From a virus, in the IMG/VR virus record IMGVR_UViG_3300032294_000246, positions 1 to 32,980 of that record: a stretch of DNA of 32,980 bases; one strand, written 5' to 3'. The notes beneath the pieces were generated by a model. That model searched no databases, was not told the origin of the DNA, and worked only from the letters and a program-made list of their open reading frames with translations. A program made the position numbers and the translations under genes. Numbering within the stretch: position 1 is the stretch's first letter; each line of letters opens with the position of its first letter. This document shows, in pieces, positions 7,658-32,862 of this stretch.

Positions 7658-10600
7658 ATGGCAATCCAAACCGCTACAAACCCACAGACAGGCGAAACAG
7701 TTGTATTGGTCGATGGTAAGTGGGTGCCAGCGGACCAAACTGCCACAAATGATAAGGGTCAAAAAGCCTATTTGGTAAACAATCGGTGGCTGGTTGATCA
7801 ACCCGCAGCGCCCACCTCCAAAGAACGTACAACGGGCGAAGCTTTCAAAGATGTCGGTGCTGGAATTGTTTCTGGTGTTGGCAGTGTTGTCCAACTGCCG
7901 GGGCAACTCTACGGTTTAGCCACGGGCGATTTTTCTAAGACTGGCGCGTTGGGTCTTGGGGAAGACATTACTAAGTTCGGCGAAGAGATGAAGTCTGCGG
8001 GTCTGAAGGCCCGTGAAGCCGAACGCAACCGTAAGGTTCAGGAAGCCGAAAAACAAGGGCAGTTTGCTGCGTTCAAGGCCGCGCTCGGAGAAACAATTAC
8101 CGATCCGGGTTTGCTCACCAGCTTCCTTGCAGAGCAAGTGCCTCAACTCATACCAATGATTCTGGCTGGCGGTGGCGCTGGCTATATCGCCAAGAGAGGT
8201 GTGATGAGTGAGGCCGCAGCGCGAGGCGCTGCACAAGAAGCCGCTAAGCGCTTGGCGTCCCAAAAGGCTGTTAAGGCTGGCACGACAGCGGCGATCCAAA
8301 CTGGCGCTGTGATGCAGGGTACTGATATAGGCGCTGGTGCGTACGATGAGATTTTCAAAGAACTCACAGACTCGGGAATGTCTCCCGAACGAGCAGCGGC
8401 AGAGACCATCAACAAGGCGCGTGCCGCAGGCGTAGCAGGATATGGTCTGTCTATCTTGGCCAACCGTTATCTTCCCGGTGGTAAAGCATTGGAAGAAGTT
8501 CTGGCTGGTAAAAAACTTGCTGGTGGTCGCATCGGCACAGGCGTTGTAACTGGTCTCAAAGAAATCCCCGGCGAGAACATCGAAGAAGTCGGCGGTCGCA
8601 TCGCGCAAAACATTGCTGCCCAGCAAGCTGGCCTCGACCGTGATCTGCTGGCTGGCACTGGCCAGACTGCTGCTATGGCCACTTTGGGTGCTGCCGGTAT
8701 GGGTGGCGGTGCTGGTTTGTTGGCTGGTCGTCGCGCTCCGCCCAAAGATGTTCTGCAAGACACTACGCAGACAGAAACAGAACAAAAACCTGAAGCGCCG
8801 CAAACACCTGCCGAAGAGTCCACTACAAAACAGCCAGAGACTGATCTTTTTAAAGAGCTTATTCTGGGAGAAAAAACGGCGGCTAAGGAAACCGAGCCTA
8901 CTACGGTAGAAGAACTCCGCGCAGCTTACGAAGCTGGTGTAGCGCGTGAATCCGAGTTGCGCAACAAGCCAAAAGGTACAAAAACTCGTGAAGAACAAGT
9001 TGAACTTCAGGCGCTACATCAAAAGAATCGAGCACTAAAGAAAAAACTTGATGATGCGATTGCCCAGACAACTACGCAAGGAGCAACAGATGTTGCAAGA
9101 CCTGACACAGAGCCAAGTGGAGTCGGCACTACAGTATCTGCACCTGCAGCCGACGAGCTTTCCACCACCGAGCGACTTGAAGGAACTGAACGAGATGGAG
9201 TGGTTCCTACTGGATCGGATGCTGCAGTGTCTACTACGGGAGAAGGAACAACAGCCCCTGCAGTAACGCCACCCGCAGAAACCGTAACACCGTCAACTAC
9301 TGGAGAAACCCTTGGCACTGAAACCGCTGAAACCGTCAAAACAGAAACGCAAGGACAAAAAGCTGCCGCAGCCCCCGCAGTAACTGAACCACGCCAAGAA
9401 CTCCTTAACAAACGCAAAGCGCAAGCTGAAGCGTTGGGAATCGATCTGCGTGATATTCAGCAAAGCGAGATTGACGAGCAGGTCGCTGAAACTGAGAAGC
9501 GGATTGGTCAGAAGTTCAATGAAGAACGCAAGAGCGTTGTATATGATGAAGATGCACAGAACTTCATTGAAGAGGCTGAAAAGGGTAACTTGTCGCCACA
9601 GTTCGGCTGGGAAGGCGATAAGCTTGGTGCGTTTGAAGAGATGCTGGAGCGCAACGGCGTTGACTCAGAAAGCGTCCTCAAGCGCGAGCAAGATACAGAC
9701 GTAGTGCCAGAAGCCGAACGCGCGGCGCAGTTGAAGGCTGCGCTTGACGCGCTGAACGCAAAGCGTGAGCAGTTGCGTGAGTGGGACAGACTGACTGCGG
9801 ACCAAAAGCGCGTGTACCTTGATAATCTGACTACCAATGAACTTGGTCAGATTACCCCACTGGGTCGGCAAAAAGCATTGGAAGCATTAAATCGTTACAC
9901 CGCCAGAAAAGAACGCACAACGACTGGCGAAGTCAAAGGCAACCGCGAAGAAGGTCTCTACGAGACACAGCGCACTGCGTACAACAAGAAGACAGGCTTG
10001 TCACTGCCACCGTACTCTGAACTCACTGCCGATGAAAAGGCTAAGTTCAAACAAGACCTGAAGTACCGCAAGAAGGATGGTAAGACCATCGATCCTACTG
10101 TCGAGAACATTGACGAAGCGTTCAACAACCTTGCGCGTTCAGTCAGCGAACGTAGGGGTGTTCAAAGGACAGACGAAAAAGCTGCGCAGCAAGAGGCCGA
10201 ACTCAAGTCTTACAAGAGAGCGCAAAGCGAAATTGCGGCGGCGCAAGAGCAGCGTAAACAAAATCAACGTAAGACAGAAGAAGGAGAAGGCCCTACCTCT
10301 CCTGTTGAACGTATCAAGCGTAACGCGTTCATTCCGAGCAAAGCGGCTGAACAAGTCAAAGCTGGCAACACAGAAAACGTGTTGAACTATCTGCGCACAC
10401 AGGCTAAGAACAAGTTGCATCGCGCGATTGCGCAAGTGATTTCTAATCTTAATCTGAAGACCAAAATCAAGTACGTAGATAAACTGCCCAAAGGTAGGCT
10501 TGCTGAGTACGACCCCAAGACCGACACCATCCTTGTAACGGCAGAGGGTCTGACTGATGAAATTCTTTTGCACGAGTTTGTACATGCCGCCACGATCAAA

Positions 10601-13600
10601 GTGCTGGATCAGTACGAGAAAGGCAACCTCAAAGGACTGACTGAGGCGCAGATTGAAGCTGCCGAGATGCTTGAGGATTTGATGGACCGTGCGAGTGACA
10701 CGTTGGGGGACAGCTACCCCGATGCATTTGAGAACTTGCTTGAGTTTGTGTCTTACGCGTTGACAGATAAGTTCTTCCAAGAAGCTTTGGATAACGTCAG
10801 ATTGGACGTTAAACAAGGGAACAAGATAGTCACCTTTCCGACCATCCTGCCGGAAACAAAATCAGCGTGGTCGGAGTTTATGAAAGGCGTACTGAACGTC
10901 CTTGGCCTGACCAAGAAGATGTTTCAGGGACAGGAAACCAACTACAACGCGCGCAATGCGTTGCTTGAAGTCTTCCAAGCGTTTGAAACAATTGCTGCTC
11001 CATCCACAGAGCGGATTGAACGCGCCCCACTTCCCGCTAAGCGCGTGAAAGCACCAGAACTTCCCGAAAGTGTTCAAAAGACAGTCTCGCGCAGTCCTCT
11101 GCCGTCTACGCCAAAACTTAACACGATCATTGGCACGCTCACAACATACCAAGGTCGCGGCAACATCCTTAAATACGCTGTCAATGAGCGCATCATGCTC
11201 AAGCGGTGGCAAGATGGTTTGAGCAAAGCCGGAAAGATTATGTTCGGCACGGAAAAATCAAATGCCGTGTACGCCGCTGTCCTGCGTTCTACTGGTATGT
11301 CTGTTGACTTGTTCAAAGAGTACGGTCAACAAATTATGGAAGACGTTCAGCAGGGTGTGATTAACTACGCCAAAGCCGTAGGGACTGACGGCTCTGAAGC
11401 CCTTCAACGTATTGGTACTGTGATGATTGCTCTTCATGAGCCTGAGCGCCGTCAGACGTTGTTTAACATGTACGTGCCACTGCAAAACACGACTGTTGAT
11501 GTTAAGTACCCAGACGGCAAGACTCGGAGTGTGGTTCCAGCACAGGTACGCAAAGACATTTTCCGAGTGTTGGACCAGAACACAAAACTTGCTCCGGCTG
11601 ACATAAAGTACATGCAAGACCTGATGGATACTTTGGTAAAAGATCACGTTGACCCTAACGGGTTCTCCGGTCTTGATCCTACGCAGTCGGAAAAACGTTT
11701 CCAGAAAAAGACTGACATCAAAGACGGCGCGTACAACGTAGCTGGCCAGTCTTCGGAAGCCGAAATGAAAGAAGTGCTGGACACGATGTATTCCCCTGAT
11801 AGCGCGGGATACAAAGAACTCAACAAGGTGGTTGAGGCGCTCAAAAAAGCTCAAAAAGCTTCTCAGCGCATGAACAAGATGGCCAACTATTGGACCCAGC
11901 CAGTGGACAACCGTGTTGAATTCTACGGCTGGCAAAACTACACCCCGCTTCGCGGTAAATTAGGTCTTGGAACTAGCGGACAAAACGACCGTATAGAAAG
12001 CCAAATTGAACCTATGCAGCTAAGCACGCGCATGTCCCAATACGAAAAAGGCTTCTTTGGTCGTGAATCCGAGCCAGACAACACTGTGCTGTTGGTCATG
12101 TCCGATATGGCTAAAGCTGCCATGCGTAACGGCATCCGTGAAATTACCAAAAGCACAGTCAATGCCATCAACGATAAGCTGATGGACGGGAATACAAGTA
12201 AGGTCATCAAGTTTGAAGATCGACATAACTTTGAGCCTGACGTGGAACAGAAGACTATCTTCCACTACGAGCCCAATGGTGACATCCGTGTCGTAAAGAT
12301 TGCCGACGGACAATTGGCTGAGGCTATCAAGGGCACGTTCAAAAAATCCAACCCTCTGATTGATATTCCCGGAACGCTCACTTCGTTCATGGGTAAGACT
12401 CACACACGTTACAACTTGTCGTTTGCACCAGTAGACTTTGTTCGCAACGTGCTGACCAACACCGGACTCATAGGGTTCGACATGGGACCAAAGGCAAGTG
12501 CGAAGTATCTTGCAAACATTGCTGGTGCCGTAGTAACGGGAGGCCTGCGTAAATCGTGGACCGCTGGCAGTTTGTATGAATCGGGTAGCATGACTGAACT
12601 CGAAAAGCTCGCGGGTGATAACAAGCCGTACGAACAGCTTACTTCTACCCAACAGTACTATCGTGACGTTCTCGATTACATCCAAGGCGGCGGCAAGATT
12701 TCGTATCTGAAAGGCATTTCCAGCAAGTCACTGCAGGAAGAAGTTGAAGCGCAAATGAGGAATTTTGGGTTTCTGAAAGAGCCCAAGACAGTTGAGAAAT
12801 TCCTCAACAAGTACACCGACATGTTTGAGTTGGCTACCCGTGTTGAAGCGTTCAGGATTAGCCGCAGTGATAAATATGCCGAACTTGTAAAAGAGAAAGC
12901 CCCGAAGACACAAGCTGAAAAAGATGCGTTGCGTTCCGATGCGGCTTCGTATGCGATCTATTACACCAAAGACCTCGCTAACTTTGAACAGACAGGTAAG
13001 TGGGGTAACGCGCTGGCTGCATGGTTTATGTTCTGGCGTCCCGCTGCTACGGGCGCGTATCGGGCTATTGAATCTGTGGCTCCGATGTTCCAAGACGCGG
13101 ACTACACGATGAAGCTTCAACTGCCACGGTCTGTATGGGACCCAGAAAGCAAGAAGTACGATCCGCAAGCGGTGAAGAAATTCAAAGAACGCCATGCCGA
13201 GCAAAAGAAAAACGCCATGATCATGGTTGGACTCTTAGGCACGATGGGCGTAGCGGTGTATTCAATGGCCGCTGCCTTGTCTGACGACGACGATATGGGC
13301 CGTAATAAAGCTCTGGTGGATGACCCAGCGCAGTGGACTCGCTATGCGCGTTTCCATATTCCGGGCTTTGAAAATCCGATTCGTATACCGTGGGGATTTG
13401 GTCCCGGCGCGTTTGCATCTGCTGGCGCTCAGTTGGCTATGGTGGCGCAAGGCGCTTCCACATGGAAAGAAGCGCTCGTGAACATCTGGCACGTTGCTTC
13501 GGATTCTTTCCTGCCTCTGCCGTTCTCCAAAACCGACCCAACAGATAACCTTGCGGTCTGGATGATCGACAGCTTGACTCCAGCGCCTCTTCGTCCGTTG

Positions 13601-14242
13601 GTGCAGTTTACTCTCAACGTAGACGGGTTGGGTCGGCGCATCTACAACGACACGCAGTCCAAGTACAGCAACGTGTTTGTTGCTGGGTTCAACATCCCCG
13701 AGATATACAAGGACGTTGCGCAGTTGATGTATGAAGTGACAGACGGCGGAGTGGAAGTTGAACCTAACAGCCTATACTTCTTTGCGACAAACTACGCTGA
13801 CGGGATTGTGCGTCCGCTTGTCACAATGTCCAACTTGGCGATGGTTGCTTACGGCAGCAAAGACTTTGACTCAAAGACTGACTTGCCAATCATAGGTGGG
13901 TTTGTTGGCGCTAAGGCTAACGTAGACGGCAAACAGTTTGCGAAAGCGGAAAAAGAAGTGCTTGCGCTACGCACTCGGGTCAATACTCTGAGGGATAACT
14001 TCCCAGAACGTTACGTTGATTTCATCGACAAGAACCCGATGGCCGAAGCCATCATTGCTGAATACGACAAGAACGTAAACGGCGAGTTGAAAAAGCTCCG
14101 TTCTGAGATGAAAGAGATCAGCCGTATGCGTGACCTCACTCCTAAAGAACGTAACGACATCCGCAAAGAAATTCTGTTGATGCAGAATCTAGAAAAACGG
14201 ATGATGCTGGATACGTTCGAGGCATACGGTATGAAGCCCTAA
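7658..14242 (+). CDS. Giant polyvalent virion protein with HExxH metallopeptidase-like domain
   Basis: This 2194-aa protein has at its N-terminus two short tandem repeats ending in LVDGKWVP and LVNNRWLV. Next come an Ala/Gly-rich helical region with hydrophobic stretches (about 150-350) and a Thr/Glu/Pro-rich linker (about 365-585). A metallopeptidase-like site follows: H972-E973-F-V-H976, with E1029 in LLEFVSYAL as a plausible third zinc ligand. The C-terminal third includes FWRPAATGAYRAIESVAP and a membrane-like segment at about 1852-1875 followed by four Asp, like large polyvalent protein-associated domain 38 (LPD38) as I recall it. Such proteins are thought to be packaged and delivered into the host. 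No lysozyme or polymerase motif was found. The gene ends the left arm and overlaps a convergent gene by 4 bases. Confidence 0.82.
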   Translation: MAIQTATNPQTGETVVLVDGKWVPADQTATNDKGQKAYLVNNRWLVDQPAAPTSKERTTGEAFKDVGAGIVSGVGSVVQLPGQLYGLATGDFSKTGALGLGEDITKFGEEMKSAGLKAREAERNRKVQEAEKQGQFAAFKAALGETITDPGLLTSFLAEQVPQLIPMILAGGGAGYIAKRGVMSEAAARGAAQEAAKRLASQKAVKAGTTAAIQTGAVMQGTDIGAGAYDEIFKELTDSGMSPERAAAETINKARAAGVAGYGLSILANRYLPGGKALEEVLAGKKLAGGRIGTGVVTGLKEIPGENIEEVGGRIAQNIAAQQAGLDRDLLAGTGQTAAMATLGAAGMGGGAGLLAGRRAPPKDVLQDTTQTETEQKPEAPQTPAEESTTKQPETDLFKELILGEKTAAKETEPTTVEELRAAYEAGVARESELRNKPKGTKTREEQVELQALHQKNRALKKKLDDAIAQTTTQGATDVARPDTEPSGVGTTVSAPAADELSTTERLEGTERDGVVPTGSDAAVSTTGEGTTAPAVTPPAETVTPSTTGETLGTETAETVKTETQGQKAAAAPAVTEPRQELLNKRKAQAEALGIDLRDIQQSEIDEQVAETEKRIGQKFNEERKSVVYDEDAQNFIEEAEKGNLSPQFGWEGDKLGAFEEMLERNGVDSESVLKREQDTDVVPEAERAAQLKAALDALNAKREQLREWDRLTADQKRVYLDNLTTNELGQITPLGRQKALEALNRYTARKERTTTGEVKGNREEGLYETQRTAYNKKTGLSLPPYSELTADEKAKFKQDLKYRKKDGKTIDPTVENIDEAFNNLARSVSERRGVQRTDEKAAQQEAELKSYKRAQSEIAAAQEQRKQNQRKTEEGEGPTSPVERIKRNAFIPSKAAEQVKAGNTENVLNYLRTQAKNKLHRAIAQVISNLNLKTKIKYVDKLPKGRLAEYDPKTDTILVTAEGLTDEILLHEFVHAATIKVLDQYEKGNLKGLTEAQIEAAEMLEDLMDRASDTLGDSYPDAFENLLEFVSYALTDKFFQEALDNVRLDVKQGNKIVTFPTILPETKSAWSEFMKGVLNVLGLTKKMFQGQETNYNARNALLEVFQAFETIAAPSTERIERAPLPAKRVKAPELPESVQKTVSRSPLPSTPKLNTIIGTLTTYQGRGNILKYAVNERIMLKRWQDGLSKAGKIMFGTEKSNAVYAAVLRSTGMSVDLFKEYGQQIMEDVQQGVINYAKAVGTDGSEALQRIGTVMIALHEPERRQTLFNMYVPLQNTTVDVKYPDGKTRSVVPAQVRKDIFRVLDQNTKLAPADIKYMQDLMDTLVKDHVDPNGFSGLDPTQSEKRFQKKTDIKDGAYNVAGQSSEAEMKEVLDTMYSPDSAGYKELNKVVEALKKAQKASQRMNKMANYWTQPVDNRVEFYGWQNYTPLRGKLGLGTSGQNDRIESQIEPMQLSTRMSQYEKGFFGRESEPDNTVLLVMSDMAKAAMRNGIREITKSTVNAINDKLMDGNTSKVIKFEDRHNFEPDVEQKTIFHYEPNGDIRVVKIADGQLAEAIKGTFKKSNPLIDIPGTLTSFMGKTHTRYNLSFAPVDFVRNVLTNTGLIGFDMGPKASAKYLANIAGAVVTGGLRKSWTAGSLYESGSMTELEKLAGDNKPYEQLTSTQQYYRDVLDYIQGGGKISYLKGISSKSLQEEVEAQMRNFGFLKEPKTVEKFLNKYTDMFELATRVEAFRISRSDKYAELVKEKAPKTQAEKDALRSDAASYAIYYTKDLANFEQTGKWGNALAAWFMFWRPAATGAYRAIESVAPMFQDADYTMKLQLPRSVWDPESKKYDPQAVKKFKERHAEQKKNAMIMVGLLGTMGVAVYSMAAALSDDDDMGRNKALVDDPAQWTRYARFHIPGFENPIRIPWGFGPGAFASAGAQLAMVAQGASTWKEALVNIWHVASDSFLPLPFSKTDPTDNLAVWMIDSLTPAPLRPLVQFTLNVDGLGRRIYNDTQSKYSNVFVAGFNIPEIYKDVAQLMYEVTDGGVEVEPNSLYFFATNYADGIVRPLVTMSNLAMVAYGSKDFDSKTDLPIIGGFVGAKANVDGKQFAKAEKEVLALRTRVNTLRDNFPERYVDFIDKNPMAEAIIAEYDKNVNGELKKLRSEMKEISRMRDLTPKERNDIRKEILLMQNLEKRMMLDTFEAYGMKP

Positions 14243-26480: not shown

Positions 26481-26773
26481 TTTGTTTTCTCCAAGATAAG
26501 TTGTTTGAGAATCTTCAAGTTGTATTCGTCTACAACAAGGGCGATACCGCCGCGCATTTCAATCTCATCAAGGTGAGACTGCTGTAGTCGCGTAACCTTG
26601 CCACCGTTTGCTTTGCACTCGATGCCAATGAAACGCCCGTTGAAGCAACACAGGATGTCAGGGATGCCTGAATTGCCGAACCCTCCCGTTACGGGCATGA
26701 CGTAGTAAGCGCCGATTGAAGCCAGTTCCTCCTTGACCTTGCGCTTAACTTTTCCTTCTGGTGTTTCAGCCAT
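26477..26773 (-). CDS. VRR-NUC type endonuclease
   Basis: This 98-aa protein starts at the ATG encoding MAETPEGKVKRK, with GGAGG 6 bases upstream. It is a compact PD-(D/E)XK nuclease of the VRR-NUC family: E6 on the first helix, D39 in SGIPDILCC, E52-C-K54 in IGIECKA, and a Gln pair Q64-Q65. Single-domain versions this short are frequent in phages and are thought to cut branched DNA such as Holliday junctions or replication forks. It may help debranch DNA before packaging. It starts 8 bases inside the preceding gene. Confidence 0.88.
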   Translation of the reverse strand: MAETPEGKVKRKVKEELASIGAYYVMPVTGGFGNSGIPDILCCFNGRFIGIECKANGGKVTRLQQSHLDEIEMRGGIALVVDEYNLKILKQLILEKTK

Positions 26774-27098
26774 GTAAGTCCTCCATCTGATCTCTGCCGA
26801 GGATGATGATGTACAAGTGTCTGTTGACTCTCCACCCAATCGTGTTGAGTTTCTCGTCTTGCTTGTTGATGTATGCCGTGATTGGGTCTATATCCCATAT
26901 GGCAACGTCATTCGGGGGGAACGCGTTGATCATTGCGAACGCAGACTTCAGATCGTTCGGCAGTGTGTCGTCTGTGTAGTACCTGTAATAGTTCTGCTTG
27001 AGGCATAACCTGTACTTGTCACCATCCACCCACAACGGTACACGCCAGTGGTCCGACCAGCTTGTGTGCATGATCGGAACATACGGGTCATTCTTCAT
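26766..27098 (-). CDS. Conserved hypothetical phage protein
   Basis: This 110-aa protein starts at the ATG encoding MKNDPYVPIMHTSWSDHW, in an ATGA overlap with the gene upstream. It is rich in aromatic residues (YRLCLKQNYYRYYTDDTLP, then GWRVNRHLYIIILGRDQMEDL). Sequences of this type occur in other phage genomes without known function. An alpha/beta domain is likely. It follows the MoxR/VWA cassette and precedes the VRR-NUC gene. Confidence 0.75.
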   Translation of the reverse strand: MKNDPYVPIMHTSWSDHWRVPLWVDGDKYRLCLKQNYYRYYTDDTLPNDLKSAFAMINAFPPNDVAIWDIDPITAYINKQDEKLNTIGWRVNRHLYIIILGRDQMEDLHG

Positions 27099-28021
27099 GG
27101 AGCCACTTTGGGAATGGCTACCCACATCGGTTGGCTGTGCGAGGTGTACCCAGTGGCTATGTCCAACTCAGGGTAGTAGCGGTCGCGTACTGGCAGACCG
27201 AACTCGTTGTCAACGTTGTGGCTGTCCCTACCCTGCATGAATGTATTTATCATCATGACTACCGGAGCAATCGGTAGTTCCTTGAGGGTACTGTAGCGTT
27301 TCAGGGGGGCGTGAACTGTTAGTTCACCTTCGTCACCCAACGACACATCTGCAACGAGATAGTGTGGGTCTGTGGTGTTGTTTGTTACGCAACCAATCAC
27401 GGTTGCACCTTTTTTAAACCGCTTAACGTCTGAAGTTCTTTCTTCATGTGACTTAGTCTCCGACTGATGTTTACTGTATATGGTTTTGAGCTCGTCAATG
27501 TACGCATTCATTCCAACGGTGTCAACACCTAAAACAAAATTCATTGCTGCTTTTTGTATGTGCTGTGGTAAAGATACACTGGGACCGCCATACCTTATGT
27601 TGTGCTCGATTGCCTCGAACGGCGTAAGCATGTCTCGCTTCATTGATTTAAGAAGGGCTTCCATAGTGGGCTCCTCCTTGTTCTTCTTGATTGCGCGAAT
27701 GAGACTACTGATCTTGTTAGAGTCTCTCGCGTCACGATCTGACTTGGCGCTGGCTTTATCCTTGCTGATAGTTTTGAGGTAAGCACGATAGGTGTACTTG
27801 TTATCCCCCATGTATTCGATTGATACCGACCCACAAGATATGCCGCTCTCTGTGACAAGGTACGCCGACTCTCTGCTTCCACTCTTTGTTATTCTGATCA
27901 AGCGCAAGTTGTATGCGTGGCAGAACTCATGTACCAGCTTCTTGAGTTCTATCCGATAGAGGTGGTCTTCGTTGAGTTGCTCAGCCACGTTGTCACGGGC
28001 ATAAGTTGAAATGATGCTCAT
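27095..28021 (-). CDS. Hypothetical protein at the end of the MoxR/VWA cassette
   Basis: This 308-aa protein starts at the ATG encoding MSIISTYARDNV, with GGAGA 8 bases upstream. It has a beta-rich part with repeated Tyr and Ser (IEYMGDNKYTYRAYL), a charged helical centre, and a C-terminal strand-rich segment ending PMWVAIPKVAP. I do not recognise a domain. It sits 23 bases downstream of the 321-aa gene and shares the cassette's direction. It may be a substrate or adaptor of the AAA+/VWA pair, which is inference from position. Confidence 0.72.
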   Translation of the reverse strand: MSIISTYARDNVAEQLNEDHLYRIELKKLVHEFCHAYNLRLIRITKSGSRESAYLVTESGISCGSVSIEYMGDNKYTYRAYLKTISKDKASAKSDRDARDSNKISSLIRAIKKNKEEPTMEALLKSMKRDMLTPFEAIEHNIRYGGPSVSLPQHIQKAAMNFVLGVDTVGMNAYIDELKTIYSKHQSETKSHEERTSDVKRFKKGATVIGCVTNNTTDPHYLVADVSLGDEGELTVHAPLKRYSTLKELPIAPVVMMINTFMQGRDSHNVDNEFGLPVRDRYYPELDIATGYTSHSQPMWVAIPKVAP

Positions 28022-28044
28022 CGTTTTCTCCGTTTGGTTAAAAA

Positions 28045-29010
28045 TTACAGGCGCTTCATTGCTACGCCGTTGACAGTCACCAGCAAGTCCCACTTGCTCT
28101 CAGGTAACTCTTTACCTGCTTGCAGTTCCTTGAGTTCAAACAAGTCTTTATGAGTTGATACTGCGATGTCTCTGAACTTGTTCTTCAGTGCGCGCATGGT
28201 GCGCTCCTTGAAGCGGCTAGGTAGTCCGTTTAGATGATTAGGGACATACTCCCCGGACACACGGGCTTCGTGTCTGAATCTAGTGCCATGCCTGATCTCC
28301 CACAAAGAGTTCTCGATCATGGAGAACAAGCACAGAGCATCAACGTACTTGCCTTCGTGTATTAGTTGCATGACGTGCTTTTCATTCAAGTCCTTGAACA
28401 AATCTTTGTGGATGTCATACATGTCGTCGTACACCTGAAGGATGCCAGCGTCATCCATACTGTTCAGCATCACAGGCGCTACAGTCTTGAACTCATCGAA
28501 CTGCTTCATGTACTGATTCGCTTCTTTGCGTTTCACCACTGACTGAAACAGTTTGTAATCGGTGCGAGACTCGCCCGAGTCACAGTCGATACGCAGACCA
28601 CGGAACACAGGATGGATGTGTTGGCCACGATGGAATACCAGACCGCCTTTGTTGACGTTGTAGCCCAGACCACCTCTTAGACCTTCGCACAGCAACATGT
28701 TCTCGCCCTGCCCGCTTGCGTTGAGGAACTCAAACGAGTTGTCTGAACGAACCAAGCCAAGCTTCTGTGATTCGTAGCGACTCGCGTACTGCTTACGTTC
28801 TTCAGCCAGTGTGTCTTTAGCAAGACCGTCAGACACTTCTTTGTTGAGATACCAAATCGAGAAAGAACCATCCTCCTCTCTGCGGAAGTGCCGCGATGAG
28901 TAACGCCTTTCACCCAAGGGCCACGAGTTGTCGCTACCTCTGAATGGCTTGGAGCGACTGATCTCCTCCAAGTTCTTGTAGTTGATGTATTGAATGTCGT
29001 AGAAAGCCAT
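28045..29010 (-). CDS. Hypothetical protein of the MoxR/VWA cassette
   Basis: This 321-aa protein starts in a one-base overlap (TAATG) with the VWA gene and has GGAGAAC upstream. The N-terminal third contains many aromatic and charged residues (YINYKNLEEISRSKPF, GGLVFHRGQHIHPVFRGLRI). The rest is helical. No known motif is visible. The tight coupling to the VWA gene suggests the two products work together. It could be the target or a scaffold of the AAA+/VWA machine. Confidence 0.75.
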   Translation of the reverse strand: MAFYDIQYINYKNLEEISRSKPFRGSDNSWPLGERRYSSRHFRREEDGSFSIWYLNKEVSDGLAKDTLAEERKQYASRYESQKLGLVRSDNSFEFLNASGQGENMLLCEGLRGGLGYNVNKGGLVFHRGQHIHPVFRGLRIDCDSGESRTDYKLFQSVVKRKEANQYMKQFDEFKTVAPVMLNSMDDAGILQVYDDMYDIHKDLFKDLNEKHVMQLIHEGKYVDALCLFSMIENSLWEIRHGTRFRHEARVSGEYVPNHLNGLPSRFKERTMRALKNKFRDIAVSTHKDLFELKELQAGKELPESKWDLLVTVNGVAMKRL

Positions 29011-30230
29011 TACTTGTTCTCCATAAAAACTTTTTTACCTGTTGGTGGTGTCCAGCCCTTGTTCTCTGTGACCATCCACAGAGTCGGAGCAGAGATCGAC
29101 CACTTGACGTCACTCTCAAGATAACCATCGGTGAAGACCAACACGCACTCAGCGTTGACCTTGTTCTTGTTTATGTATTCACTGACACATGAAACCCTAG
29201 TGCCGCCGCCACCCTTGGGCTTGAGCATTGCACCGATGTTTGCGTAGTTGTCTGTGAACAGTTGCTCACCGTGAACCATCGTGTCCCACCACAAAACGCG
29301 CACAGCTTCGGGCGACACAGCCTCACAAATGGATACCAGTTCTGAAGCGAACTCATTGAGTTCCCTCTCACCGATCGAACCCGATGTGTCAATGGCAACG
29401 ACAATCTCTCCGATAGTCTCTGTCTCCACAGTTGGCAGATACATATCGTTGGCAATCACCCTGCGGTTGAACTTGCGCCATGTGTACTCGTCCTTACCTT
29501 TGGTGGCCGCTGACACGAACTCGCGCAGTGCTTCACGCCAGTCAATCTTTGGCTCAAGCAACTCTGTGATGGAGCGAGGCAGATCGATACCGAGGCGACC
29601 AGCGAGTAACGCACCTTCGCGGATAGCCCTGTCGATACGCGCATCCAAGGCTTTGGCCTCCTCTTGCGTTGCGCCTTGTGCAGAACCTTCTCCATCGATG
29701 TCGTGGTCATCGAACTTGTAACCACCACCGCCCGACCCATCGTCATCACCTTGCTTTTCACCCTCCCCTGAACCTTTACCTTTGCGTTCGTCCTTGTCTT
29801 TCTTCAACAGGCGATAGACCTCACGCATGTTCATGTTGTGATACTTCGGGTCGTAACAGCCACCCTCTGGTAACTTAACAAGGCTCTTGTCCTTGATGTT
29901 CATGATGATGTCGTTGACCACAAAGTCAGCCGCCATGTTTGCCAACTGCCGATCCTCCTTGAACAGATCGATGCTGTGGATCATGTGACGCAGACCGATG
30001 TGCAAGTTCTCGTGCAAGATGAGACCATTGACTTCTGTTTGTTCCTTGCACACTGTGCTGAGAAACTTACGGCCATACTTCTTGTTGACACCATCGGTGT
30101 AGGCTGTCACGCTGTCATCGTCAATGACAGATGTATTGCCCATCATCATCACACCCGACCACAGCGCAGTCTCTGGGTGCTTCATCAGGGCAATGTGGCC
30201 CTTCTTGATTCGTTGTTCTTCAGTCAGCAT
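29010..30230 (-). CDS. VWA protein with HExxH metallopeptidase-like N-terminus (DUF2201-like)
   Basis: This 406-aa protein has AAGGAG 8 bases before the ATG. The N-terminal domain has H73-E74-N-L-H77 in LILHENLHIGLRH, followed by N98-x3-D102-x3-N106, as in the putative metallopeptidase DUF2201. An acidic Gly-rich linker (150-185) leads to a von Willebrand A domain with a full MIDAS: D281-x-S283-x-S285 (DTSGS), T344 in GGGGTRVS and D368 in FTDGYL. Such proteins pair with MoxR-type AAA+ ATPases to remodel or insert metals into targets. The MoxR-like gene lies two short genes upstream, which supports that pairing. Confidence 0.87.
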   Translation of the reverse strand: MLTEEQRIKKGHIALMKHPETALWSGVMMMGNTSVIDDDSVTAYTDGVNKKYGRKFLSTVCKEQTEVNGLILHENLHIGLRHMIHSIDLFKEDRQLANMAADFVVNDIIMNIKDKSLVKLPEGGCYDPKYHNMNMREVYRLLKKDKDERKGKGSGEGEKQGDDDGSGGGGYKFDDHDIDGEGSAQGATQEEAKALDARIDRAIREGALLAGRLGIDLPRSITELLEPKIDWREALREFVSAATKGKDEYTWRKFNRRVIANDMYLPTVETETIGEIVVAIDTSGSIGERELNEFASELVSICEAVSPEAVRVLWWDTMVHGEQLFTDNYANIGAMLKPKGGGGTRVSCVSEYINKNKVNAECVLVFTDGYLESDVKWSISAPTLWMVTENKGWTPPTGKKVFMENK

Positions 30231-30414
30231 TTCTTAACTCCTTCATGAATGAGTCGTGATCGTTCTTCATCCGGTCATAGATGTCACGGTCGTTGAGCAT
30301 TGCTCTGATCATCCGCTTACCCATAACAGATTCCTCACGGTACTTGAGCGCATAGCCCAACGCGATGAAGAACGCACAGATCAGAAAGATTTCAAAGTAG
30401 GTGTATTCGATCAT
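30220..30414 (-). CDS. Small single-pass membrane protein
   Basis: This 64-aa protein has GAGGAA about 7 bases before the ATG. Residues 6-24 (YFEIFLICAFFIALGYALK) form a clear transmembrane helix, followed by a charged cytosolic tail with many Arg, Asp and Met. The gene starts in an ATGA overlap and its stop lies 11 bases inside the VWA gene. It may anchor the cassette at the membrane, or act as a small holin-like or superinfection-type protein. The single helix and charged tail do not decide this. Confidence 0.75.
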   Translation of the reverse strand: MIEYTYFEIFLICAFFIALGYALKYREESVMGKRMIRAMLNDRDIYDRMKNDHDSFMKELRNAD

Positions 30415-30575
30415 TTCATTTCCTCAATTGATTCAACATCCCACACAGCATCATCACTGTCTGGTCGATCGCCACACTCAGCCCATGCTTTGTCCAACGC
30501 ATCATCGTTGTCTTCAGCCTCCACAGTGAACGTGATGTAGCTTGTGCGGCGTAGTTCCACTTCGTATGTTTTCAT
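30411..30575 (-). CDS. Small acidic 54-aa protein
   Basis: AAGGGGAACAAC stands before the ATG, and the stop overlaps the start of the membrane protein gene (ATGA). The protein opens MKTYEVELRRTSYITFTVEA and continues with an acidic helix (DDALDKAWAE). This is a strand-strand-helix pattern seen in small phage proteins of unknown role. It lies between the AAA+ gene and the VWA gene, so it is expressed with them. Confidence 0.75.
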   Translation of the reverse strand: MKTYEVELRRTSYITFTVEAEDNDDALDKAWAECGDRPDSDDAVWDVESIEEMK

Positions 30576-30585
30576 GTTGTTCCCC

Positions 30586-31656
30586 TTACATCAACACATG
30601 GTTCTCAGCAGACCACTTCATGATCTCTTGGTTGTATCGCGCAACGCGAGGCTTGCCGCGCATGATCATCGTGAAGAAGATGGATTGAACTTCTGACGAC
30701 GGGATACGGTTCACGAACTCCATGTACTTGCTTAGATCATCCTGTGTCTCCACACAGTCAACGGCCTCGAACATCATCATGACTTGAGCAGATACATCGT
30801 CTGGCATAGCGACAGTCTTCGGAGCTTTGATCACGTCCTTGAACCCGATCAGCTTGCTCTCAAGCGCAATGAACGCCGCCATAGATTTAGCCGCCGCTTC
30901 GCCAATGGTGCCAGCCAGCATTGCCATCATCAGATGTTCTCCCAGTTCAGCCTTAGCTGAAACGATCGGCGATGCTTTAGCCAACGAACGGGGCGAGACA
31001 AACTGCGCTGTGACCCCACTCGGTTTGAAGATGTACGGGTTGTCGTCCTGACCACCATCTGTGTATGAGTAGAGTGCGCGGGGATTCATGGACACCCAAG
31101 CGCGGATAGGTCTTGCGATCTTGTTGGCTGTCGCCCACACGTTCCACTGCTCAGCGTTTGGCTTGGCCATTTTCAGCATGGTCACACGGTTACCAACGTG
31201 CGCCAGCATCGAGTCGCCCACACCATCGCTTGAGTTGTTACTTGTTGCAAACACGATGGAACCATCGGGAAGAGGTTCGTCACCCACACTGCGCTCAAGG
31301 ATGAGTCGAGTGAAGATGATCTGCAACAGCTTGGGAGACTTCATAAACTCGTCAAGCATGATGACCTTCTTCTTGCCGTTGCCAAGCTTGAACAGCGATG
31401 ACACGTAATACTCCAGAGTCTTACTCTCATGATTGGGGATGGATGCCGCAACGTCCATCATGTCTTTGACAGGGCAGTCAACGTAGATGAAGTCGTACTC
31501 GTTGTTGTCCATCTCGGCCTCAAGCATCTTGATGATGGTTGACTTGCCGACACCTGGCTCGGACACAATGATCGGAGTGATGTATTGGCCAACAGTCTTG
31601 ATAGCAGTCTTGGCCTCTTCGATGGATACAGCGAGTGTGAAGTTAATTTTTGACAT
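30586..31656 (-). CDS. MoxR/CbbQ-like AAA+ ATPase
   Basis: This 356-aa protein starts at the ATG encoding MSKINFTLAV with AAAGG upstream. A codon 12 residues earlier lacks a better site. Walker A is EPGVGKST (33-40), Walker B VIMLDE (98-103), sensor 1 FATSNN (136-141), with an Arg-finger candidate at R157 in HVGNRVTM. The order and the short Walker A-B spacing match MoxR/NorQ/CbbQ-type AAA+ proteins, which act as hexamers with a VWA partner. T4-like cyanophages carry a related gene often annotated cobS. The C-terminal third is helical without a known domain. The VWA partner is encoded by the third gene downstream. Confidence 0.88.
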   Translation of the reverse strand: MSKINFTLAVSIEEAKTAIKTVGQYITPIIVSEPGVGKSTIIKMLEAEMDNNEYDFIYVDCPVKDMMDVAASIPNHESKTLEYYVSSLFKLGNGKKKVIMLDEFMKSPKLLQIIFTRLILERSVGDEPLPDGSIVFATSNNSSDGVGDSMLAHVGNRVTMLKMAKPNAEQWNVWATANKIARPIRAWVSMNPRALYSYTDGGQDDNPYIFKPSGVTAQFVSPRSLAKASPIVSAKAELGEHLMMAMLAGTIGEAAAKSMAAFIALESKLIGFKDVIKAPKTVAMPDDVSAQVMMMFEAVDCVETQDDLSKYMEFVNRIPSSEVQSIFFTMIMRGKPRVARYNQEIMKWSAENHVLM

Positions 31657-31688
31657 GGTTTTACCTTTGCGTTTCAGGGGTGGGTGAA

Positions 31689-32597
31689 TCAATAAGTCTT
31701 GAGCGGTTTGAACTTGGACAGCATCTCATCGATGTTGTCGCGTACCTCACTGCGTGTGAATGAACTCTCACGTAACTCCTCCACGGTTACATCGCGCAAT
31801 GCGTTAGAGAGTTGATCGACAGCCGCGTCGAGCAGAGTGTTGTTTGTCAGATTGAAGTTACGGATGGTCTCGCATATCTCCTTGGCTTGCGTGAATGTGC
31901 TGTCGTAAATCTTCTTGCGGCGAACCTTGCCGTCATCGTCTGCGCTTGCCTCGGTGCATGCGTTCTGCAAACGCTCGGCAATCTCGATGAGTCGGTCGGT
32001 CGCATCGTTCATCACGGAGTCAATGATCTCCTTGGTCTGACGCTCGTAATGTTGTTTTAGATCATCAGCGATTGCAGTTGCGATGCCGCCGGTGCGGAAG
32101 TCACTCGCCGGTACTTGGCTCACATGAAGCTTGATGCGGAACTTGGAGCGAACATCTTGCGTGTCAGGGTACTCTGAACGATTGAACATGTCGCCTTGCT
32201 TGAACGCCGCATCGCTGACGATTTGTGGATATGACACGATGAACTTGTCCAACAGTTTGGCAAACTCGGTCTCATGCTGTGCGTACTCTTTCTTGAACCG
32301 TTCAAGATTGATGATTGGCAACAGCCGCATGGAACCCGCCCAGTCATACGTAGAACGCTGAAGCCAGTTATAGACCGTCTGCCGATAGTTCAACAGCGCT
32401 TTGTGATCGGGTGATGAGCTCAGCAAGTTCTTCGTAAACTTGCCAGCGTCTGACGATGCATTCTTAGATGCAGTCACCTCGTTGGATATGGCGCGGTCTT
32501 GCTTGGTTGCAGTCCACACGTTCACATCCACAGAGACAATCAGCGCAGATGATGCGAGTGAGATCAAGTGGTTAGGTTGGTTGAGTTCAAAGTTCAT
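31689..32597 (-). CDS. DUF3150-like protein of the MoxR/VWA cassette
   Basis: This 302-aa protein starts at the ATG encoding MNFELNQPNHL, with GGAGAG 7 bases upstream. An in-frame ATG four codons earlier is possible. It is largely helical. The segment YDWAGSMRLLPIINLERF, the FIVSYP pattern and SEYPDTQDVRSKFRIKL, ending in VSQVPASDF, resemble DUF3150, a family that often sits next to MoxR/VWA genes. This likeness is from memory and moderate. The gene is the first of the three cassette core genes and its product may regulate the AAA+ ATPase. Confidence 0.72.
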   Translation of the reverse strand: MNFELNQPNHLISLASSALIVSVDVNVWTATKQDRAISNEVTASKNASSDAGKFTKNLLSSSPDHKALLNYRQTVYNWLQRSTYDWAGSMRLLPIINLERFKKEYAQHETEFAKLLDKFIVSYPQIVSDAAFKQGDMFNRSEYPDTQDVRSKFRIKLHVSQVPASDFRTGGIATAIADDLKQHYERQTKEIIDSVMNDATDRLIEIAERLQNACTEASADDDGKVRRKKIYDSTFTQAKEICETIRNFNLTNNTLLDAAVDQLSNALRDVTVEELRESSFTRSEVRDNIDEMLSKFKPLKTY

Positions 32598-32613: not shown

Positions 32614-32862
32614 TCAGGGGTTGGTGAAATCGATGTTGATCGGCTTGAGGTGGGTGACTGTCACCTCGTACCCGAGTTGTTGTATCCGTCTGATGTTTGT
32701 CTCAGACAGAGTGGCAGTCCTAGCAATAGCGGCGAACAAGCGCGATGTCTCGCACGCCGGATAGAACATCCATTTGCCGTAGTTATCTTTGGCGAGGATG
32801 ACTATCTGCTTGCCTGCTTTCAAGCCTGCTTCGTAAGATTCGTTGTCGTGCGCTTGGCTCAT
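32614..32862 (-). CDS. Small hypothetical protein
   Basis: This 82-aa protein has GGAGG about 10 bases before the ATG, and its start overlaps the stop of the truncated gene at the window edge (ATGA). It has a strand-rich core (KQIVILAKDNYGKWMFYP) and a helix (CETSRLFAAIARTATL) and ends in IRRIQQLGYEVTVTHLKP. No known domain is seen. The stop is 17 bases before the start of the DUF3150-like gene. Confidence 0.75.
   Translation of the reverse strand: MSQAHDNESYEAGLKAGKQIVILAKDNYGKWMFYPACETSRLFAAIARTATLSETNIRRIQQLGYEVTVTHLKPINIDFTNP

Follow-up and report, generated by a model that had tools for sequence, protein, structure and literature searches.

The DUF3150/AAA+/VWA cassette and its conservation

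A gene cassette was analysed in the IMG/VR virus record IMGVR_UViG_3300032294_000246, whose 32,980 bases, the whole stretch of DNA under study, are referred to here as the window. Read on the minus strand, the operon at 27095-32597 encodes a DUF3150-like protein, an AAA+ ATPase, a 54-aa open reading frame (ORF), a single-transmembrane (TM) protein, a VWA protein, and two large proteins of 321 and 308 aa, P321 and P308 (Table 1). The genes named in a first-pass annotation, which a model had made from the letters of the window, were all recovered where it had placed them, on the minus strand and tightly packed. Its gene list was nonetheless incomplete, since it missed the 54-aa ORF and the block continues beyond P308 into genes for a 110-aa protein and a VRR-Nuc-type endonuclease. 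The packing is evident from the spacing of neighbouring genes: the gap between the DUF3150-like and AAA+ genes is 32 nt, the TM and VWA genes overlap by 11 nt, the VWA and P321 genes by 1 nt, and the 54-aa ORF overlaps the TM gene by ATGA.

To evaluate the constancy of this arrangement, IMG/VR was scanned and about 300 loci were obtained, which dereplication by AAA+ sequence reduced to 128. All loci were retrieved by homology to the cassette, so the following counts, taken on loci with enough flanking sequence (testable loci), describe constancy within the clade and not frequency among phages. In 113/113 testable loci, the AAA+ gene is preceded on its own strand by a DUF3150-like gene, and in 118/118 it is followed by a VWA gene; the AAA+ gene is never separated from either partner, in agreement with the linkage that had been anticipated. 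Because orthologues keep their order and strand in more than 110 distinct viral loci, the gene set is far beyond chance. DUF3150 is a constant third partner of the AAA+/VWA pair in this unclassified phage clade. The other members of the block are retained to differing degrees among the 85 loci that could be tested: VRR-Nuc in all 85, P308 in 83, the 110-aa protein in 79 and P321 in 65. The 82-aa protein encoded upstream of the DUF3150-like gene is conserved in about one third of the clade loci.

Table 1. Features of the cassette and the adjoining syntenic block in the window
Feature	Position	Strand	Remarks
82-aa protein directly upstream of DUF3150-like gene	32614-32862	-	no family match
DUF3150-like protein, 302 aa	31689-32597	-	constant third component
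AAA+ ATPase, 356 aa	30586-31656	-	N4 gp24 homologue, MoxR/midasin-like; phrog_1297 (ATPase), E 2.8e-51
Acidic small ORF, 54 aa	30411-30575	-	ATG at 30575, stop 30411-30413
Single-TM protein, 64 aa	30220-30414	-	one hydrophobic helix
VWA protein with N-terminal zincin-like domain, 406 aa	29010-30230	-	N4 gp25 homologue; DUF2201_N + DUF2201
P321, 321 aa	28045-29010	-	accessory; no family match
P308, 308 aa	27095-28021	-	accessory; best start 28021; no family match
110-aa conserved protein	26766-27098	-	extends syntenic block; no family match
VRR-Nuc-type endonuclease, 98 aa	26477-26773	-	end of syntenic block; phrog_93, E 7.6e-18

In the window, the cassette lies on the same strand as the replication genes and opposite to the structural genes. 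The longest gene of the window, which encodes 2194 aa (7658-14242, plus strand), is the final gene of the structural block and faces the replication genes in convergent orientation, a position like that of the virion RNA polymerase (vRNAP) gene in phage N4. An LPD38 domain at the C-terminus is the sole match of its product, and no PHROG match was obtained. A nucleotide-level search among phages for relatives gave no match.

Properties of the encoded proteins

The AAA+ protein contains all the AAA+ motifs, and the Walker A residues G35, G37 and K38, the Walker B residues D102 and E103, as well as N140, R157 and R223 are invariant in the clade. It had been annotated as a MoxR-type ATPase. The pairing of AAA+ motifs with an adjacent VWA gene, by which the MoxR family is recognised, is indeed present. 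However, the label is a loose one, because a family profile built from distant relatives finds midasin AAA domains as the nearest solved structures (E 1e-37), and the Pfam MoxR model AAA_3 matches just 2 of 15 relatives, as against 11 of 15 for AAA_5; the window protein itself is sub-threshold. Judged from these comparisons, "MoxR-type" is acceptable as a broad label only.

The VWA protein matches DUF2201_N (PF13203, "putative metallopeptidase") with an E of 1.5e-26 (94.1 bits, Pfam cut-off 23.2) and DUF2201 (PF09967, "VWA-like") with an E of 2.2e-20 (73.4 bits, cut-off 26.4). Both an HExxH motif (H73-E-N-L-H77) and a full metal-ion-dependent adhesion site (MIDAS; D281-T-S283-G-S285, T344 and D368) were located, as the first-pass annotation had reported. 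The HExxH residues, N98, D102 and all MIDAS residues are invariant in 48/48 non-redundant clade members. In the AlphaFold2 (AF2) model (predicted local distance difference test, pLDDT, 83.7; mostly >90 in the N-terminal domain), the HExxH motif sits on helix 64-79 and N98 and D102 on the following helix 94-110, an arrangement as in minimal zincins, and D102 is the putative third metal ligand. Foldseek matches of the model are dominated by VWA folds, with the VWA part resembling MDN1 MIDAS, Ro60 and NorD. In all rows aligned, the VWA domain is the last of the protein, and there is no C-terminal effector domain. It should be mentioned that PHROG 1314, which comprises DUF2201 VWA/metallopeptidase proteins, is labelled "HNH endonuclease", and that RefSeq phage records bear the same apparently wrong name, N4 gp25 (L152:2165-3307) being an example.

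The expected retention of HExxH and MIDAS holds throughout the clade but not fully outside it. MIDAS is retained by all 15 distant relatives compared and HExxH by 14 of them, the exception being a protein of a Variovorax plasmid lineage. From this difference, the docking function appears to be under stronger constraint than the peptidase.

The assignment of the third component, also proposed earlier, needed its relatives. Alone, the window protein is sub-threshold against Pfam PF11348 (E 0.011; 15.6 bits, curated cut-off 24.9), and 11 of 42 clade members match that model at E <0.01, the best at 1.1e-4. The clade profile, however, matches the DUF3150 proteins of plasmids and of an integrative element with E values from 1e-22 to 1e-38, including a Chitinophaga protein (E 1e-31) that itself exceeds the Pfam DUF3150 cut-off, and a structural match (E 5e-17) links the AF2 model (pLDDT 84) to a DUF3150 protein of a phage. 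By profile and predicted structure, DUF3150 homology of the window protein is established through these relatives. No match of the predicted fold below E 0.1 was found in the PDB.

The presence of a single-pass membrane protein was borne out, with one hydrophobic helix. By sequence alone this family had a lineage-specific look (8-12 loci), a view that was overturned by a position-based test: a TM-type small ORF occurs in sense in 31 of 57 long AAA-VWA gaps, vs 6 in antisense and 2.0 expected from codon shuffles. The majority have a short N-terminus, a single TM segment and a charged C-terminal part. This recurrence suggests that a membrane tether, the putative function of the TM protein, is a recurrent and fast-evolving feature. 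No Pfam family was found for the acidic 54-aa ORF.

P321 and P308 had been described as two large proteins of unknown family, and profile searches of Pfam, PHROG, NCBIfam and the PDB indeed gave no useful match. A NADAR match for P321 was seen in 1 of 46 members only, and a Specificity_I match for P308 was single and weak; both were treated as chance. No relationship between P321 and P308 was detected, and two large proteins that follow the VWA gene in cyanophage MinM2 are not detectably related to them. The mean column identity is 45-57% for the trio proteins vs 20-26% for these two partners (20% for the P308 family), and the P321 family is fast-evolving. Pfam and PHROG gave no family for the 110-aa protein.

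Distribution among phages, plasmids and an integrative element

By tblastn, the VWA protein was found in 722 and the AAA+ protein in 568 phage records, largely of N4-like phages, with PA5oct and Bacillus phage G in addition. The VWA/AAA+ pair is the N4 gp24/gp25 pair, and gp25 retains both HExxH and MIDAS. Any novelty that the first-pass annotation had implied for the pair itself therefore does not hold: gp24 (AAA+ ATPase) and gp25 (vWFA protein) are core genes of the Schitoviridae (PMC4193335, PMC7650795, PMC2784036), and Iyer et al. 2021 (PMC7824862) described a MoxR-vWA-metallopeptidase pair in jumbo phages of group 2.2, for which they proposed a role in virion assembly. Neither the pair and its place among the core genes of N4-like phages nor the fusion with the peptidase is thus new. 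As in N4, the AAA+ gene stands upstream of a gene for a homologous DUF2201 VWA protein, and the N4 genes are expressed with replication-phase genes; unlike here, N4 has no detectable DUF3150, P321 or P308 genes there. The jumbo-phage pair likewise has the peptidase fused N-terminal to the vWA domain, whereas a third component was not reported for it. DUF3150 was looked for next to the AAA+ and VWA genes of N4, PA5oct, phage G and XC38 and was not found. As a separate observation, the RIIA/RIIB genes of the N4 record are gp33/gp34, not gp24/gp25.

Membership of the Schitoviridae was considered for this virus and rejected. The window and a 63-kb relative, compared by tblastn with N4 (9-70 kb), matched it in the AAA+ and VWA proteins only, although the window is a fragment and the reach of tblastn is limited. 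A vRNAP of ~3500 aa and an N4-type replication or structural core were not found by tblastn, the longest gene product being the 2194-aa protein. By this test, which found just these two proteins in common with N4, the virus does not qualify as a schitovirus.

The trio is also present beyond the clade. Among 44 plasmid records with DUF3150, 41 carry AAA, DUF3150 and VWA in that order on one strand (hand comparison); the remaining three belong to Ca. Manganitrophus. In most of the plasmid regions inspected, the neighbours of the trio are genes of conjugation or DNA metabolism, and several plasmid trios adjoin type IV secretion system (T4SS)/Tra genes, PRTRC genes, or RecT/SSB/nuclease genes. On the Burkholderiaceae plasmids L324 and L325, no more than about 10 kb separates the trio from a PRTRC (ThiF/JAB/E2-like) gene set. 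A Chitinophaga genome has the order AAA-VWA-DUF3150 near relaxase- and coupling-protein-like genes, and from our reading of the translations this locus looks like an integrative element of the integrative and conjugative (ICE-like) type. A survey of 396 Bacteroidota genomes for DUF3150 gave this genome, from which it had started, as the sole match. Cyanophage MinM2 shows a looser order, with AAA, one ORF, DUF3150, three ORFs and VWA. Profiles connect all three components across these elements and the clade phages.

DUF3150 is not mentioned in the open-access literature that was searched. On that basis, neither the trio nor its distribution on plasmids and the integrative element appears to have been described. 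DUF3150 as a constant partner, the occurrence of the trio on plasmids, the Chitinophaga element and MinM2, and the recurrent TM protein appear to be new.

Proposed function of the trio

NorQ/NorD, CbbQ/CbbO and RavA/ViaA likewise combine an AAA+ ring with a neighbouring gene for a MIDAS-bearing VWA partner, and their targets are host metalloenzymes or respiratory complexes. To our knowledge, the VWA partners of these systems have no DUF2201_N peptidase domain, and the systems have no DUF3150. Midasin (Rea1/MDN1) provides the closest PDB profile match of the AAA+ protein, and the VWA model matches MDN1-MIDAS; however, midasin is a single chain of ~4,900 residues with several AAA domains that serves ribosome assembly, in contrast to the separate proteins and the peptidase domain found here. 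The VWA domain of NorD inserts a finger into the AAA+ pore of NorQ, and NorD is remodelled by the ATPase activity (PMC13036017).

On balance, we consider it somewhat more probable than not that the trio is a membrane-linked AAA+/VWA-zincin remodeller of mobile elements, with DUF3150 as adaptor, which acts before virion formation on a target of the host or of the element. The AAA+ protein would form an ATP-driven ring, to which the VWA protein would attach by its MIDAS in the manner of NorQ/NorD or midasin. The N-terminus of the VWA protein would be a minimal zincin-type peptidase domain, and by pulling or twisting its VWA partner the ring could offer a bound client to this domain. DUF3150 would be a dedicated third subunit, most likely an adaptor for substrate choice or for coupling of the VWA protein to the ring, and in the phage clade the small TM protein may tether the complex to the inner membrane. 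Such a machine would remodel, and probably cleave, a host or element protein in the pre-virion phase of infection; on the plasmids and the integrative element, it may perform an equivalent task around transfer or establishment. Since phages, plasmids and an integrative element all carry the trio, it looks like shared equipment of mobile DNA.

Several findings weigh against this proposal. N4-like phages, jumbo phages and the Synechocystis plasmid pSYSA carry the AAA+/VWA pair with no detectable DUF3150, and on the Ca. Manganitrophus plasmid inspected (L321:3689-6711) DUF3150 adjoins a different AAA+ gene, with DUF1257/DUF2997 and without VWA; the trio is therefore not obligatory. The predicted zincin fold is based on the motif and on predicted secondary structure, and over the HExxH segment a distant-relative profile matches M48 and MJ1213 peptidases weakly (E 0.02-0.09). 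In the Variovorax plasmid protein (L320:6944-8230), SATVLH replaces the HExxH segment while MIDAS is kept, which indicates that peptidase activity may be dispensable, or at least may not be required everywhere.

The first-pass annotation had suggested remodelling of a host or virion target. Its remodelling part is sustained by the AAA+/VWA pair and the putative metallopeptidase domain, but the virion option loses weight, since plasmids and an integrative element build no virions and yet carry the same trio. A chaperone-protease that folds, assembles or trims phage structural proteins was proposed for the jumbo phages by Iyer et al. 2021, with a precedent in the Acidianus two-tailed virus (PMC7824862), and in roseophage RPP1 the virion genes are close to the gp24/gp25 homologues (PMC4193335). 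In the window, however, the cassette shares its strand with the replication genes and not with the structural genes, and the N4 gp24/gp25 transcripts are middle, not late (PMC4193335); both points argue for a pre-virion role, and we regard virion assembly as unlikely. The element types found so far all enter the cell as foreign DNA, the plasmid copies lie near conjugation genes, and one plasmid combines the trio with RecT/SSB/nuclease and methyltransferase genes, as might be expected if the machine disarmed a host defence or restriction complex on behalf of incoming phages and conjugative elements. Such a counter-defence or establishment factor is nevertheless rather improbable in our estimate: PADLOC, which covers anti-phage defence families, gave no match of note, the trio is not confined to the plasmid leading region in the contexts inspected, and the place of the pair among the core genes of N4-like phages suggests that it serves a constitutive need and not an arms race.

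Two further explanations carry little weight. Maturation of a metalloenzyme or cofactor, in which the pair would insert metal into an element or host enzyme like NorQ/NorD or CobS/CobT, accords with general AAA+/VWA biochemistry (PMC13036017, PMC9976466), and the VWA part does match NorD among others. Yet the trio has no metalloenzyme gene as a conserved neighbour in the different contexts, and the block holds no client candidate, which makes this role very improbable. It may be added that NorD-type partners are generally known without an extra HExxH domain. An offensive MoxR-vWA ternary conflict system of the VMAP kind also has three components, including one AAA+ and one VWA protein (PMC7159879), but it is contradicted by the domain architecture, given that the third protein here is DUF3150 and no VMAP protein is present, that the VWA protein bears no C-terminal effector domain, and that there is little architectural variability; we give this reading almost no credence. 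In our ranking, remodelling of a host or element protein comes first, virion assembly second and specific counter-defence third.

A bolder form of the remodelling proposal, which we advance tentatively and consider possible but not probable, is that an undescribed membrane-linked AAA+/VWA-zincin/DUF3150 machine of phages, conjugative plasmids and integrative elements aids the establishment of incoming DNA by acting on a single conserved host factor, which it remodels or cleaves, with N4 gp24/gp25 as a reduced form.

The comparisons correct misleading annotations of gp25 relatives as "HNH endonuclease" and, in one paper, of gp24/gp25 as rIIA/rIIB-like. They also define the trio as a testable three-subunit complex, with the Variovorax protein as a natural HExxH-less variant and the TM protein as a candidate membrane tether. 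N4 gp24/gp25 are core genes in a whole phage family. A constant third partner, and the presence of the trio on conjugative plasmids, make virion assembly a less likely role and suggest one that different kinds of incoming DNA have in common.

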